Source of the DNA: Saccharicrinis carchari
GTDB lineage: Bacteria > Bacteroidota > Bacteroidia > Bacteroidales > Marinilabiliaceae
Direction of reading: 5' to 3'
DNA length: 64,000 bases
NCBI RefSeq assembly: GCF_900182605.1
Contig: NZ_FXTB01000002.1
Span: 1-64,000, forward strand
Below, piece by piece: positions 9,190-58,969 of this stretch (positions within the stretch are counted from its first letter, which is position 1; each line of letters begins with the position of its first letter). The notes under the pieces were generated by a model. The model was not told where the DNA came from. It saw nothing but the letters and a program-made list of their open reading frames with translations, and ran no database searches. The position numbers and the translations under genes were made by a program.

Positions 9190-10203
9190 TTAAGCCACTT
9201 TTTCAGTGGAGCTATTAATATTATTCTCTCTTGGATCAAGACATATATAATCTCGACTATATGGTGTTTTGTTTTTCACAACACTATATATTGTCCTGAG
9301 CAATTTGTTTGCTACGTTGTTCATGATTAAAAAATGTGGCTTCCCTTCCATCTTTTTTCTCTCGTAATATAAACGGTATTCTTTGTTGTGCTTTACTGCT
9401 GACTTGGCCCCCATATAGAGTAAGGACTTTAGTTCTTTGTCTGCAAACGGGCTTGTTTTAGACTTCCCGACCATCTTTCCGGATGCGTTGGGGAAAGGGC
9501 ATACACCCGCAAAAGAGGCCGCTTTTTTAGCCGTGCCTATGGTTTCAAAGTTACCCGTCCTTATAAGCAAATTCGTGGTTATTACAGGCCCTACGCCCTT
9601 GACCGTGATTGCCAGTTCGTAATTCTCTTTGAGTTCATTTTTTGCCATTATTACTGCCTCTATTTCAGTTTCTACTTCCTTTATCTGGTCATCCAGGTTA
9701 TGCAATACCTTTTGAAGATGTTTGTTTACACTTACGCTTTGCATTGGTAAAATAGAACGCCCATGGTTACCTGTCCTTAATCCCTTGCGGGTCTTTACTA
9801 ATTGAGAACGCAATGTGTAAAGTGATTTCAGCTCTACAATTTCTTCTGTGTCATACTCCTTGAACACTAATTTGTCAAAGAACCTTTCTCCATACTCCCG
9901 GACCCTTCCTGCATCTACAGGATCGCTCTTTCCCTTTGTTATCCCCAAGCTATGCTTTATTGTATAGCCCGGAACCAGGGCTATATGTAGATTTAACTGG
10001 TTACACAGGTAAACCAATAAGTCTCCGTAAGCACCTGTATGTTCCGCACACAAAACATCTCCTTCAGGAACACTTTCTAAGAAATTGGATATAGAACCCA
10101 ATTTGTTTTTTACCAACCAGTGAGTCTCTTTACCGTTTGCGTCAATAAAATTTACATCAAACTTTTCCATTGACAAATCAATTCCATATACTTGCATAAA
10201 CAT
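9190..10203 (-). CDS. IS110 family transposase (DEDD recombinase)
   Basis: A 337-residue recombinase that moves its element through a bridge-RNA-guided mechanism. The N-terminal DEDD RuvC-like domain shows D9 (YGIDLS), E54 (CAEHTG), D94 and D97 (KSDPVDAGR). A coiled-coil linker spans about 160-195. The C-terminal Transposase_20 domain begins with a helix-hairpin VKGVGP near 201-206 and carries S241 in NASGK, the expected serine nucleophile. It appears intact. Its non-coding side is upstream (10204 onward), as in the IS110 group rather than IS1111. No terminal inverted repeats are evident, as expected for the family. Confidence 0.95.
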   Translation of the reverse strand: MFMQVYGIDLSMEKFDVNFIDANGKETHWLVKNKLGSISNFLESVPEGDVLCAEHTGAYGDLLVYLCNQLNLHIALVPGYTIKHSLGITKGKSDPVDAGRVREYGERFFDKLVFKEYDTEEIVELKSLYTLRSQLVKTRKGLRTGNHGRSILPMQSVSVNKHLQKVLHNLDDQIKEVETEIEAVIMAKNELKENYELAITVKGVGPVITTNLLIRTGNFETIGTAKKAASFAGVCPFPNASGKMVGKSKTSPFADKELKSLLYMGAKSAVKHNKEYRLYYERKKMEGKPHFLIMNNVANKLLRTIYSVVKNKTPYSRDYICLDPRENNINSSTEKVA

Positions 10204-54391: not shown

Positions 54392-56317
54392 ATGTGTGGA
54401 ATCACAGGATATATAAATGCCAGCTCAAAGCCAATTACCGATACCTCCAGGATTATTTCGATGCTAAAGGTGCAAAGACACCGCGGCCCCGACGATTCCG
54501 GCATCAGAGCCTTTAATTTAAAGGCAGGCAGCTCCCAAGCTTTAAACAGCCACTCGATAGAAGATATAGATGGCAATTTTAACGGCGTGTTGGGTTTTAA
54601 CCGTTTAAGCATCCTCGATTTATCGGCCATGGGACATCAGCCGATGCTTAGCCCCGGTGGTAAAGTGGCGCTGGCCTTTAACGGCGAAATTTACAATGCC
54701 TTTGATTATAAAAAAGAGCTTGAGGAGTGGGGATATCAATTTAAGAGCACTTCTGATACAGAGGTAGTACTGGCGCTTTACCTAAAATATGGTCTGCATG
54801 AAATGCTTAACAGGCTCAATGGTATGTTTGCCATTGTAATAGTCGATTTAAAAAAACGAAGCTTATATGTAGCCCGTGATCGCTTTGGTATAAAACCCAT
54901 GTATTATGTATCTAACAAAAATGTTTTTGCTTTTTCATCTGAATTAAAATGTTTTAAATATATAAATGACTTTTCGTTTGGTTTAAACCCTGCTAAACTG
55001 GATGAATATTTGCTATTCCGAAATAATATTAACGACACCCTTTTTAGCGACATTAAATCTTTAAAGCCCGGCCATTTCATTACCTATACACATGCAGGGG
55101 AACTTAATGTAGAGCAATTTTTTAATGTGAACCAATATCACAGGCAACACATACACGAAATAAGCCGAAAGCAAGTACAACAAAAGTTGGAGTTGTGCTT
55201 AGGGAATAGCGTACAGAGCCAATTGATGAGCGATGTAAAGCTGGGGTGTCAGCTTTCCGGGGGTGTCGATTCTTCTCTAGTGACCTGGCTGGCCAACAAA
55301 CAAAGCAAAAACGGCAACTTTGAATCTGTTTCCATTGTTTTCGATGATGAGCGGTTTTCAGAGGAAAAATATATCGACCAGGTGAGTCAAACCCTGGGTA
55401 TAACCGCACATAAGTTCTTGTTAGATTCGGAGTATTATCTGGATCATTTTGAGCATGCTACCTGGCATCTGGAAGCCCCGCTCAACCATCCCAACACCAT
55501 TGGAATTTATAAATTGTCGCAGCGGGCTAAAGAGTATGTTACTGTTTTGCTTAGCGGTGAGGGTGCCGATGAGGTGTTTGGGGGGTACGAAAGGTTTTAT
55601 GATATCAAATATCCATATGGCGGATTAAATATTTTGCGACAGATAAAAAACAATGTAAAGCAACCCTCAGAGATACTCGATTATTTTAATGAAGCTAACC
55701 GGGCCATAATGTCAACCGCTTTTATGCAACCTGCCCTGGCAAAAATGCTCTGCCCGCAATTTAACAAACGCAAAGCGGCGTACGATCGTATATCTTTGTA
55801 CAATGGCTTAACGGGTACTCGTTTCGATCGTCAGGTAAAATATGAGATGCAATCGTATCTGCCGGACTTGTTGATACGCCAGGATAAGATGTCCATGGCG
55901 CATTCCATCGAAAACAGGGTGCCCTTTCTGGATAATGAAGTGGTGAGCCGTTCGTTCTCTATCCCGGAGAAATTTTTACTTAGCCGTAAAAATGGCAATG
56001 GTACCAACACCGAGAAATACCTGCTGAAACAGATGACCGCCGAGGTTTTCGGCCATCATTTTGCTTTCCGCGATAAAATGGGTTTTGGAATCCCCTTGCG
56101 CGAATTCTTTTTAAAAGATAGGTTTAACCAATACCTGAACGATAAAGTATTGCCCGGCTTAAAAGGAAGAGGAGTATTCGATGGTAAACTGGTAAATAAC
56201 TGGGTGGGTAATATCAAAGGTTTAAGTCCCCGGGAGCTCGAAGCATTGTGGGTTGTCATCGCTTTTGAAGCCTGGGCATCGGTTTATTTAGACGGAAAAT
56301 ATAAAATGCCGGTATAG
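54392..56317 (+). CDS. asnB: Asparagine synthase (glutamine-hydrolysing) family amidotransferase
   Basis: A 641-residue two-domain enzyme. MCGITGYI gives the catalytic Cys2 of the class II glutaminase; RHRGPDDSG (about 31-39), LGFNRLSILD, AFNGEIYNAF and RDRFGIKPMYY complete the N-terminal half. The synthetase half has the PP-loop LSGGVDSSLVTW near 287-298 and GEGADEVFGGY near 390, then SMAHSIENRVPFLD. Enzymes of this type in surface-glycan loci are thought to amidate uronic acids or attach amino acids to the glycan rather than only make asparagine. The family call is strong; the acceptor is not known. Confidence 0.93.
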   Translation: MCGITGYINASSKPITDTSRIISMLKVQRHRGPDDSGIRAFNLKAGSSQALNSHSIEDIDGNFNGVLGFNRLSILDLSAMGHQPMLSPGGKVALAFNGEIYNAFDYKKELEEWGYQFKSTSDTEVVLALYLKYGLHEMLNRLNGMFAIVIVDLKKRSLYVARDRFGIKPMYYVSNKNVFAFSSELKCFKYINDFSFGLNPAKLDEYLLFRNNINDTLFSDIKSLKPGHFITYTHAGELNVEQFFNVNQYHRQHIHEISRKQVQQKLELCLGNSVQSQLMSDVKLGCQLSGGVDSSLVTWLANKQSKNGNFESVSIVFDDERFSEEKYIDQVSQTLGITAHKFLLDSEYYLDHFEHATWHLEAPLNHPNTIGIYKLSQRAKEYVTVLLSGEGADEVFGGYERFYDIKYPYGGLNILRQIKNNVKQPSEILDYFNEANRAIMSTAFMQPALAKMLCPQFNKRKAAYDRISLYNGLTGTRFDRQVKYEMQSYLPDLLIRQDKMSMAHSIENRVPFLDNEVVSRSFSIPEKFLLSRKNGNGTNTEKYLLKQMTAEVFGHHFAFRDKMGFGIPLREFFLKDRFNQYLNDKVLPGLKGRGVFDGKLVNNWVGNIKGLSPRELEALWVVIAFEAWASVYLDGKYKMPV

Positions 56318-56397
56318 AGGGTTAATCCTTGGTTTTGCCTATGCAAAATTGGCCTTTGGTGCCCTATTCATATAATGTATGAATAGGGCAGGTTTGA
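56318..56397 (+). repeat. Two-hairpin structured element, copy A
   Basis: It follows the asnB stop immediately. AGGGTTAA, a first stem (TTGGTTTTGC / GCAAAATTGG, loop CTAT), CCTTTG, then a 12-bp stem GCCCTATTCATA / TATGAATAGGGC and CAGGTT. Copy B at 57704 preserves both stems with different bases at paired positions. It lies about 105 bases before the ATP-grasp gene. Confidence 0.7.
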
Positions 56398-56429
56398 CGC
56401 ACTAATTAAACAAAGCAAAATTTACCACA

Positions 56430-56475
56430 ACCATCCCTTCCTCACAATTCCTCCTCCATTGGTGGAGATAGAAGG
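56430..56475. repeat. Pyrimidine/purine-rich repeat relic
   Basis: CCATCCCTTCC... CTCC-ATTGGT-GGAG ...GAAGGGGCTG forms weak dyads of the CCCTCC/GGAGGG type seen at 54262, 16711 and 63124. It is in the leader of the ATP-grasp gene. Confidence 0.45.
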
Positions 56476-56501
56476 GGCTGTTTCTTTTTAACCTCATTCA
56501 T

Positions 56502-57533
56502 ATGAAAATAGCTATACATAGTGCCAAAGGATCATTTAGTGACCGTTGGATACCTTATTGCGAAAAAAATAATATCCCATACAAGTTGGTGAATTGTTTT
56601 AGCACGGATATCATGCAGCAGTTAAATGATTGCGATGCCCTGATGTGGCATTTCAACCATAAGGGCGCCAGAGAGAGCAAGTTTGCAAAGCAACTGTTGT
56701 TTGCGGTACAGCATGCCGGTAAAGCGGTATTCCCCAATTACAATACAGCTTGGCATTTTGACGATAAAGTGGCACAGAAGTACTTGTTGGAGGGCATAGA
56801 TGCGCCATTGGCTCCTGCATATGTGTTTTATACTAAACAGGAGGCATTAGATTGGGCCACGCAAACGGAGTATCCCAAAGTATTTAAACTGCGTAATGGT
56901 GCCGGATCGGATAATGTGAAGCTGGTGCGTTCGTTATCACAAGCCAGGCAGCTTATCCTTAAATCGTTTAACAGAGGTTTTAAACAGTACGATGCATGGG
57001 GTAACCTGAAGGAACGCGTAAGGTTATTTAAAGCCGGTAAAACTACTTTTTGGGACGTGAGCAAAGGTATTGGACGTTTTTTTTACACCACCCAATATGC
57101 CAGGGTTACAGGTAATGAAATGGGCTATGTGTATTTTCAGGAATTTATACCGCAAAACGATTCCGACATCAGGGTTTGCGTGGTGGGCGATAAAGCCTTT
57201 GCCATAAAAAGAATGGTGCGCGAAAATGATTTCAGGGCCTCGGGCAGCGGAACCATACTTTACGACAAAAAATATTTCGACGACGAAACCATAAAGGTGG
57301 CCTTTGAGGTATCCGAAAAGTTAAATGATCAATGTATGGCCTACGACTTTGTTTATAAAGACGGCAAAGCTTTGATAGTAGAAATTAGCTATGGATTTGC
57401 CAAAGAAGGTTACGATGATTGTGTGGGGTATTGGGAAAAGGACATGACTTGGCATCCCGGTAAGTTTAACCCCTACGGATGGATGGTGGAGGATATAAAG
57501 AACCAAATGAACCTCCGGAACGGGTCTGTGTAA
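56502..57533 (+). CDS. ATP-grasp domain ligase (RimK-like)
   Basis: A 343-residue carboxylate-amine or thiol ligase-type enzyme. The N-terminal domain (1-100) includes CDALMWHFNHKG and FPNYNTAWHFDDKVAQKYLLEG; the ATP-grasp part has YPKVFKLRNGAGSDNVKLV (nucleotide-binding Lys and Gly loop), YVYFQEFIP, DIRVCVVGDKAFAIKRMV and MAYDFVYKDGKALIVEISYGF (metal-binding Glu). The bulge around 165-205 is large. With AsnB next door it may condense an amino acid or other amine with a carboxyl group of the glycan; substrate inferred from context only. Its last codons form the left arm of a palindrome. Confidence 0.88.
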   Translation: MKIAIHSAKGSFSDRWIPYCEKNNIPYKLVNCFSTDIMQQLNDCDALMWHFNHKGARESKFAKQLLFAVQHAGKAVFPNYNTAWHFDDKVAQKYLLEGIDAPLAPAYVFYTKQEALDWATQTEYPKVFKLRNGAGSDNVKLVRSLSQARQLILKSFNRGFKQYDAWGNLKERVRLFKAGKTTFWDVSKGIGRFFYTTQYARVTGNEMGYVYFQEFIPQNDSDIRVCVVGDKAFAIKRMVRENDFRASGSGTILYDKKYFDDETIKVAFEVSEKLNDQCMAYDFVYKDGKALIVEISYGFAKEGYDDCVGYWEKDMTWHPGKFNPYGWMVEDIKNQMNLRNGSV

Positions 57534-57558
57534 AAGTGCTGTAAATCAGACCCGTTCC
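57517..57558. repeat. GGAACGGGTCTG palindrome overlapping a stop codon
   Basis: GGAACGGGTCTG (57517-57528) and CAGACCCGTTCC (57547-57558) are a perfect 12-bp inverted repeat with an 18-base loop. The left arm codes for the last residues of the ATP-grasp protein (stop 57531-57533). The family resemblance to GGAACGGTTCT/AGAACCGTTCC at 52457-52498 is clear. No T-tract follows. Confidence 0.7.
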
Positions 57559-57871
57559 CTAAGAAACTTTTCAGTCCATTTTGTTTCCGGTTATCTAACC
57601 ATTGCTGTAAATCAGCCCCGTTCCTTAACCGGATAAATGCACGTATTTTTCACTTTCCGCTATAATTGGCGGAAAGCGATAAAGGTTTAAGAAAACTTTT
57701 ACGAGGGTTAAGCCTCGATTTTGCCTATGAAAAATCGGCCTTTGGTGCCGTATTAATAAATTTTATAAATACGGCAGGTTAAAAACTCCGCGTCCAAAAC
57801 CACAAACAACCGCCTTTATTAACACAAAACAGAACCACAAACAATCCCGCTCTACGTTAAATAAAAATTGA
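57534..57871. other. Repeat-rich intergenic region before a GT4 gene
   Basis: No gene was seen. It contains the right arm of the palindrome above, a 21-base direct repeat of its end (57538-57558 and 57604-57624, one mismatch), a TCCGGTTA/TAACCGGA dyad (57586-57593 and 57626-57633), and two-hairpin element copy B. Confidence 0.6.
57704..57783 (+). repeat. Two-hairpin structured element, copy B
   Basis: AGGGTTAAGCC, first stem (CGATTTT / AAAATCG around GCCTATGA), GCCTTTGGT, second stem GCCGTATT / AATACGGC with an inner ATAAA/TTTAT, then CAGGTT. Compared with copy A, the fourth pair of stem 2 is G-C instead of C-G. It lies about 90 bases before the GT4 gene at 57872. Confidence 0.7.
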
Positions 57872-58969
57872 ATGGCAGCAGCAAACAAAAAAACCAAAAT
57901 ATGCCTTGTTATACATTCTCTGCAAGCTGGAGGAATGGAACGGGTGATGTCGGAGCTGGCATCGTATTTTTCCTCTAAAGCCAATGTGGAAACCCATCTG
58001 ATACTATACGGTTTAAACCGAGAGATATTTTATAAGATTCCGGACAATGTAATCGTACATAAACCAAAATTTAGCTTTAACAATAAAAAGCGTTTGGTTT
58101 CTACACTAAAAACAATAGTATATCTGCGTAAAACGATATTACGAATCGCTCCTGATTCGGTGCTAAGCTTTGGGGAGTATTGGAATAATTTTGTATTACT
58201 TTCCATGTTGGGCACTAAATATCCGGTCTATGTCTCCGATAGAAGTCAGCCTGACAAAAGCTTGGGTAAGCTGCAAGATTACCTGCGAAGAAAGCTTTAC
58301 CCAACCGCCAAAGGAGTGGTATTGCAGACCGAAAAAGGCAAAACTATTTTTTTAAAAAGCATTAAGCACCCTAATATTGCGGTAATCGGGAACCCTATTC
58401 GAGAATTAGGCCGGGTGGAACCCAAGCCTAAAAAGGAAAAAATAGTTATTATGGTGGGTCGGCTAATCCGAAGTAAAAATCAGGATAAGTTGATTGAAGT
58501 ATTTGCCGGGATCAATGCACCGGATTGGAAACTGATGTTAGTGGGATACGACCATTTGAAACAGAAGAACATGGATAGACTTAAAATGCTGGCGAAAGAT
58601 TTAGGCGTGGAAAACAGCGTAGTTTTTACGGGAAAGCACGATAAGGTAGAAGAGTTGTATAGGCAAAGTGCTATTTTTGCTTTTACTTCCAGCTCAGAGG
58701 GTTTTCCCAATGTGATTGGTGAGGCTATGTCGGCAGGACTTCCGGTGGTAGCTTTCGATTGTGTGGCAGGCCCTTCGGAAATGATTAACGATGGACAAAA
58801 CGGGTTTTTGGTTCCACTCTTTGATACAACGCAATTTAAGGATAAGCTTTCCTTGTTAATGAACGACAGCAATTTACGCGAAAAGTTAGGAGCTAATGCT
58901 CGCCAAAGTATTCAACGATTTTCAAAGGATTCTATATGTGAAGAATTTTATCGGTTTATCACGAACTAA
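57872..58969 (+). CDS. Glycosyltransferase family 4 (GT-B fold)
   Basis: A 365-residue retaining glycosyltransferase. ICLVIHSLQAGGMERVMSELASYF is the acceptor-side Rossmann start with the Gly-Gly-Met-Glu-Arg signature of GalNAc- or hexosyl-adding GT4 enzymes. C-terminal domain: VIMVGRLIRSKNQDKLIEVF, VVFTGKHDKVEELY, and EX7E as E-GFPNVIG-E. Donor not assigned. It is followed by a heptamer array and the SDR gene. Confidence 0.93.
   Translation: MAAANKKTKICLVIHSLQAGGMERVMSELASYFSSKANVETHLILYGLNREIFYKIPDNVIVHKPKFSFNNKKRLVSTLKTIVYLRKTILRIAPDSVLSFGEYWNNFVLLSMLGTKYPVYVSDRSQPDKSLGKLQDYLRRKLYPTAKGVVLQTEKGKTIFLKSIKHPNIAVIGNPIRELGRVEPKPKKEKIVIMVGRLIRSKNQDKLIEVFAGINAPDWKLMLVGYDHLKQKNMDRLKMLAKDLGVENSVVFTGKHDKVEELYRQSAIFAFTSSSEGFPNVIGEAMSAGLPVVAFDCVAGPSEMINDGQNGFLVPLFDTTQFKDKLSLLMNDSNLREKLGANARQSIQRFSKDSICEEFYRFITN

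Follow-up and report, generated by a model that had tools for sequence, protein, structure and literature searches.

Copies A and B, two short repeats in the window (the whole 64,000-nucleotide stretch of Saccharicrinis carchari DNA that was analysed), are very probably gene-less MITEs of the Marinilabiliaceae, most likely of the cut-and-paste kind and moved by an IS1380-family transposase that presumably acts in trans. Their copy number, insertion in both orientations, a 4-bp duplication differing from copy to copy, the presence of filled as well as empty sites, and IS1380-like ends and target together lead to this reading. In the proposed mechanism a DDE transposase of the IS1380 family, produced from another place in the genome, would recognise ends of the type CCTG...TATTCAT and insert the element at YTAR sites, duplicating 4 bp. 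The hairpins would be rewritten yet kept paired by template-switch repair of their arms, by selection on the fold, or by both. The element is ordinary in kind and unusual in anatomy, with mirrored half-modules and invariant anchor words around rewritten hairpins. No description of this IS1380-linked MITE family was found in the literature searched, most subscription journals and ISfinder lying outside that search; within this literature, such a family with a modular, YTAR-punctuated anatomy is an apparent addition to those known.

The two copies in the window

Copy B is a full-length element that the covariance model matches with 157 bits over positions 1-158, and its left end reads TTAACCGG (Table 1). 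Copy A, whose first base also completes the stop codon of the asparagine synthase gene, has TTTG as its right flank and is without an intact target duplication; it is probably a decayed relic of the element's 3′ half. The two form a gap-free direct repeat of 78 nt with 85% identity, spaced 1386 bp, and no ORF of at least 90 aa lies within either of them. A preliminary description of this DNA had placed both copies here, on one and the same strand, with a set of shared words, all of which are recovered on re-reading the sequence; the strand is the plus strand. The right half was correctly seen. The start of copy B was set at 57704, where it is really 57625, and since copy A is without the 5′ half, the description covered the right half of the element only.

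Table 1. Features of the window that bear on the element and its neighbours
Feature	Position	Strand	Remark
Copy B, complete element plus the TTAA at either end	57625..57782	+	aligned to 22 other copies
Inner element of copy B, CCGG...CAGG	57629-57778	+	ends read
Target duplication, left 4 bp of copy B (TTAA)	57625..57628	.	
Target duplication, right 4 bp of copy B (TTAA)	57779..57782	.	
Left half-module of copy B: H1 (end hairpin), H2, H3, GAGGG as first arm of the central palindrome	57629..57707	+	
Central GAGGGTTAA of copy B	57703-57711		
Right half-module of copy B: second arm of the central palindrome, H5, anchor CGGCCTTTGGTG, end hairpin H6 to GGCAGG	57712..57778	+	
Copy A, truncated, right half only, GAGGGTTAA to CAGGTTTG	56317..56396	+	
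Asparagine synthase (PF00733)	54392..56317	+	neighbour
RimK-like ATP-grasp protein (PF08443)	56502..57533	+	between copies A and B
Glycosyltransferase group 1 (PF00534)	57872..58969	+	neighbour

Other repeats lie close by. A 26-nt direct duplication (57537-57562 and 57603-57628) has its second unit adjoining copy B, and a 12-nt inverted repeat joins 57517-57528 with 57547-57558; together (57517-57628) they overlap the end of the ATP-grasp gene. At the same gene end in the genome G002 the hairpin is present and the 26-nt unit is single. Far from the element, the window holds a 5S rRNA at 1-75, cut by the window start, and on the minus strand at 9190-10203 an ORF of 337 aa that may encode an IS110-type transposase.

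Architecture of the element

A pattern built from the words shared by the two copies finds a third, diverged copy in the S. carchari genome. The full unit, read outward from copies in G002, measures 158 bp including the flanking TTAA and has the order TTAA, CCTG, H1, H2, H3, central GAGGGTTAACCCTC, H5, CGGCCTTTGGTGCC, H6, GGCAGG, TTAA. It is a quasi-palindrome made of two mirrored half-modules joined head to head at TTAA. From each end a half-module consists of TTAACCTG, a hairpin, ...AAAG(G)CCGA, a second hairpin and TCGAGGG, and the two mirror each other at the anchors CCGA/TCGG and TCGAGGG/CCCTCGA. The terminal inverted repeats of the window's subfamily are TTAACCTG...CAGGTTAA. The left half has one extra hairpin (H2), and between the halves the hairpin sequences show no relation. 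A global trunk fold pairing the mirrored anchors was rejected as less stable than the local hairpins (-42.0 vs -49.9 as DNA; -63.9 vs -76.7 as RNA).

A second subfamily comprises L096 in the S. carchari genome together with L115, L116 and L118, and it also carries an internal TTAR joint ahead of the end hairpin. Three copies (L110, L111 and L113) are the left half-module alone, flanked by TTAA on both sides (TTAT/TTAA at L113); they may reflect either a deletion between GGTTAA repeats or one half moving independently.

Distribution

The genus Saccharicrinis belongs to the Marinilabiliaceae. A slightly longer pattern run over the S. carchari genome and 60 relatives finds 2 copies in S. carchari, 19 in G002 and 2 in G006; the remaining 58 genomes give no match. 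In a genome collection, from which records close to S. carchari may have been left out, the search returns 20 stretches, all from the Saccharicrinis sp. MAGs LH_M88 and LH_M89. A covariance model built from 23 copies matches three of nine genomes of the genus (E 0.01). After overlapping and opposite-strand rows are merged there are 23 places in S. carchari, 34 in G002 and 4 in G006, the weakest of them being fragments, and no match at this threshold in the other six congeners. The preliminary description had proposed such a search; it does bring further copies, and their spread regardless of context speaks against the regulator then suggested.

At the level of the family the model matches 6 of 71 genomes (E 0.001). 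In a sample of the order, for which only 10 candidates per genome were scored, it matches 4 of 295 (E 1e-4), S. carchari included. A total of 449 kb sampled from G152 and G136 yields only the two places already known, plus one match at E 0.23. Lone hairpins that bear the same ends and span 42-54 nt as matched occur in G004, G013, G028, G070 and G075; the lone-hairpin pattern matches 6 of the 71 family genomes, G022 being the sixth. A genome from another family of the order carries, at L271 (G350:C9:1182400-1182597), a chain of hairpin modules separated by TTAA and having the same kind of ends. Among viral contigs, 11 stretches contain TCGAGGGTTAACCCTCG in surroundings that look unrelated, and a longer pattern has no match. 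Plasmids queried with a G002-type copy and phages queried with L269, a distant match from another family of the order, give no match.

Orientation and gene context

Seen from the window, the copies could be taken for leader elements of exopolysaccharide genes that act in cis as RNA (as a riboswitch, an attenuator or a processive antitermination element); the preliminary description had suggested an RNA regulator ahead of the ATP-grasp and GT4 genes. Both copies have the orientation of the coding strand and precede the start codons of tandem glycan genes by about 105 and 90 nt, with flanking genes in the same/same arrangement. Copy A holds a promoter-like hexamer pair, TTGGCC-16-TATAAT (10/12, at 56349-56376), and copy B holds the one terminator-like site of the region. 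However, promoter-like sites number 5 against 4.7 in shuffles and terminator-like sites 1 against 2.3. Rfam has no family for either copy, in agreement with the earlier remark that no known riboswitch was recognised, and in the window only the 5S rRNA fragment reaches a gathering score.

The wider set of copies ignores gene direction. At 61 loci, the window copies being outside the count, neighbouring ORFs of at least 70 aa were called by a crude script; 50 have an ORF on both sides and in 6 an ORF overlaps the element. The 50 are divided into 17 same/same, 14 opposite/opposite, 10 opposite/same and 9 same/opposite, and the downstream gene is on the element's strand in 27 (p 0.67), which argues against a leader function. 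The neighbours are equally mixed. Twelve copies were located in the S. carchari genome, and 20 of the 24 adjoining proteins, around 11 copies, were compared with Pfam at E 1e-8, giving a family around 8 of the 11. These neighbours are pyruvate kinase and an aldo/keto reductase; a GH18 hydrolase; an amidase; catalase and a histidine kinase; NDH-2 and a transporter; a PPDK-type protein and aminopeptidase P; an acyltransferase and a binding protein; and a mechanosensitive channel. Only two of these, the GH18 hydrolase and the cell-wall amidase, are glycan-related; the neighbours are mostly genes of other kinds.

The orthologous leaders disfavour a regulator strongly. G002 (84, 87 and 82% aa identity) and G004 (71, 74 and 75%) have the asparagine synthase, ATP-grasp and glycosyltransferase genes in the same order as the window, and in this syntenic comparison the element is absent from both sites in both genomes. 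The covariance model has no match on the syntenic G002 contig and none in G004, and G002 carries its 34 element places elsewhere despite both window sites being empty. In G003 the asparagine synthase and ATP-grasp genes are adjacent and site A, read by eye, is empty. At site B, G002 reads CCGTTCC-TTAG where the window reads CCGTTCC-TTAA followed by the element; the exact empty-site junction is blurred by the 26-nt duplication just upstream in the window. Orientation, neighbours and empty orthologous leaders led to the rejection of a leader regulator, which is now highly improbable. The other possibility raised in the preliminary description, a mobile hairpin repeat, is borne out by further copies that occur regardless of context and are flanked by target duplications.

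Target duplication

The duplications were assessed in 49 copies, about 20 truncated copies or copies without both recognisable ends (copy A among them) and the left-half-only copies L110, L111 and L113 being left aside. The end 4-mers are identical in 37 of the 49, against 20.7 expected by random re-pairing, and none of 100000 reshuffles reaches 37; in the remaining 12 they are not identical. The count is 35 of 47 without L090, whose right end is not recognisable, and L209, an insertion that a sister genome probably shares as L221. The duplications vary between copies (TTAA, TTAG, TTAT, CTAA) and appear as direct repeats. In 23 copies the ends are other than TTAA/TTAA; of these, 11 have end 4-mers identical as direct repeats and 2 have inverse-complementary ones. 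Identity as direct repeats indicates a target duplication and not a pairing. A search for empty sites by DNA comparison of a G002 region with two copies is uninformative: the matches in S. carchari and G006 are the element itself, and one match of 65 bases in G007 lies off the copies.

IS200-type insertion is not expected to make direct target duplications, and the 4-bp direct repeats thus count against an origin as REP/REPIN-like palindromes that depend for movement on an IS200-like tyrosine transposase (RAYT). Such an origin is very unlikely, even though the copies are short extragenic palindromes in both orientations and all nine genomes of the genus have Y1 transposase matches. Of 30 Y1 loci retrieved, with at most 1.5 kb on each side, 18 were checked and the element is in none of these; in 6 of the 18 there are isolated short words only. 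On this basis the IS200/RAYT origin was rejected. The Y1 gene of S. carchari has, read by eye, a different repeat array of its own. The Y1-type transposase genes at L181 (G000:C8:137307), L186 and L201 likewise lie, by eye, among short palindromes of their own that are unrelated to the element.

A probable transposase partner

A search with PF13701 gives a match in 8 of 15 genomes. The congener G008 carries an intact IS1380 transposon (L226) of 1685 bp that encodes a transposase of 451 aa, assigned to Pfam PF13701 and scoring 363 bits with the NCBIfam IS1380 model against a cut-off of 180. Its ends are CCTGAATAATTCATAAAA and CCTGAACTATTCATAAAT, 15 of 18 terminal bases match, and CTAG stands on both sides. 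The S. carchari genome has an IS1380 transposase ORF of 434 aa that exceeds the NCBIfam curated cut-off, and its flanks, read by eye, seem to be TTAAT. The sole IS1380 copy found in G002, the genome richest in the element, is interrupted by two in-frame stops and carries an internal deletion, in what is a fragmented assembly; its flanks, ATAG and TTAG, are not identical. Congeners in which the covariance model has no match (G004, G005 and G008) show IS1380 matches as well. A recent burst in one genome, with sister genomes lacking the element, offers a testable case of multiplication in which the visible transposase copy is broken.

The first 17 bases of the element were compared with five IS1380 ends. 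For subfamily 2, the right end agrees with the right end of L226 in 17 of 17 bases, and the left end, aligned ungapped, scores 9; a lone hairpin agrees with the end of the IS in G022 in 16. In the window's subfamily, represented by a G002 copy, the right end scores 15/17 and the left end at most 14/17 (with the broken IS of G002); copy B itself reaches 14/17 on the right and 11/17 on the left. No IS1380 transposon with both ends exactly as in the element was found among these five ends. No autonomous copy, with a gene between the element's ends, was recognised in ten places read from searches with the left-end pattern in three genomes and the right-end pattern in five. IS1380 itself makes a 4-bp TCAR duplication. 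For IS1247, a member of the family from Paracoccus, a 5-bp duplication is listed (PMC3281130).

The missing exact parent and the broken copy in G002 could also point to a MITE moved by another DDE family that duplicates YTAR, for example an IS5-group enzyme; these have a YTAR target preference, and the duplication alone does not name the enzyme. The 17/17 and 16/17 agreement with IS1380 ends, together with a similar type of duplication, makes this alternative unlikely, and an IS1380-type enzyme is the preferred partner.

Fold and compensatory changes

The element folds better than its shuffles, with z of -3.9 for copy A and -6.0 for full-length copy B as RNA and -11.8 for a congener's copy as DNA. 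The base changes reported earlier hold on re-reading: in stem 2, GCCC..GGGC of copy A is GCCG..CGGC in copy B, and in stem 1 two G-U pairs of copy A are G-C and A-U in copy B. In the alignment of 23 copies, five pairs are changed on both sides against 0.6 in shuffles. When stem differences are placed randomly in each copy, five compensated pairs stand against 0.49 expected (p 1.5e-4), with the proviso that three of the five are in the window copies and that one change common to both may be a single event. In L269 and L270, two distant matches from other families of the order whose right ends cannot be made out, stems H2, H3 and H5 are rewritten and the anchors CCTGAAAAAT, TTTTTCACTTT, AAAGCCGA, TCGAGGGTTAACCCTCG and CGGYCTTYGGTG are kept. 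In a model-fitted alignment of 21 rows out of 29 (seven opposite-strand rows and one duplicate were dropped), which includes copy A and weak matches and leans toward structure, double changes exceed the maximum of 300 shuffles in H2, H3, H5 and H6, and in H1 and H4 they do not exceed it.

A fold kept with covariation would also suit an RNA regulator, as would the excess of G-T over A-C mismatches in young copies (14 vs 4 as distinct events, p 0.03), a weak RNA-like sign; in old copies, however, the two are even (28 vs 25, p 0.78). Compensatory changes are not proof of a regulator, since template switching yields them without selection. Template switching is described as creating and maintaining hairpins with compensatory changes (PMC8794818). 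Two copies bear what appears from the sequence to be its footprint. At L031 (the same copy as L018) and at L098, one arm of H1 is overwritten by an inverse copy of the element end and host flank. The perfect palindrome runs 10 and 12 bases beyond CCTG, respectively, 4 of these being the duplication, and thus reaches 6 and 8 bases into unique host DNA when read by eye. Such palindromes are not what one would expect selection on the element to favour. Of the selection on a fold proposed earlier, the pairing beyond chance stands, and the same pattern can come from template switching.

Six hairpins and pairing that persists between families of the order are not needed by a plain MITE and weigh against the IS1380-type reading in its simplest form. 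It is conceivable, though doubtful, that the fold and not the letters is kept because a folded strand (single-stranded or cruciform DNA, or RNA) serves the element's own transposition or copying. On the same tentative reading, the mirrored half-modules and the anchors holding hairpins of free sequence would be conserved across families of the order because of this use of the fold. Compensatory changes between two copies are usually taken as strong evidence for a functional RNA and can stem from a MITE with template-switched hairpin arms. Families of this kind could mislead programs that look for leader RNAs automatically.

Comparison with known systems

The element resembles bacterial MITEs, of which one from Porphyromonas gingivalis is reportedly an example, in being short, non-coding and repeated, with terminal inverted repeats, a target duplication and a transposase presumed to act in trans. 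It differs from them in its two mirrored half-modules, six hairpins and invariant anchors, and in an internal TTAA joint and stems that covary between families. REPINs with their RAYT transposases are presented as non-autonomous extragenic palindromes that spread inside genomes (PMC3116915). The element shares these properties; unlike REPINs, it was not found beside a Y1 gene (18 loci checked), has direct 4-bp duplications and is unrelated in sequence.

The ends of the eukaryotic piggyBac elements start with CC, as do those of the element, and both use a TTAA-type 4-bp target. In contrast to piggyBac, the element is bacterial, its target is relaxed to YTAR and its presumed partner is an IS1380-type gene. 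IS1380 transposases serve as the prokaryotic outgroup of piggyBac (PMC10140906). Within the IS1380 family (NCBIfam NF033539, Pfam PF13701), the element stands apart in being gene-less, in measuring 150 bp against 1685 bp and in a left end that matches only partly. It resembles the family in ends that start with CCTG or CCCG and contain TATTCAT or TATGCAT, in a YTAR-type duplication (CTAG at L226), and in occurring in the same genus and the same genome.
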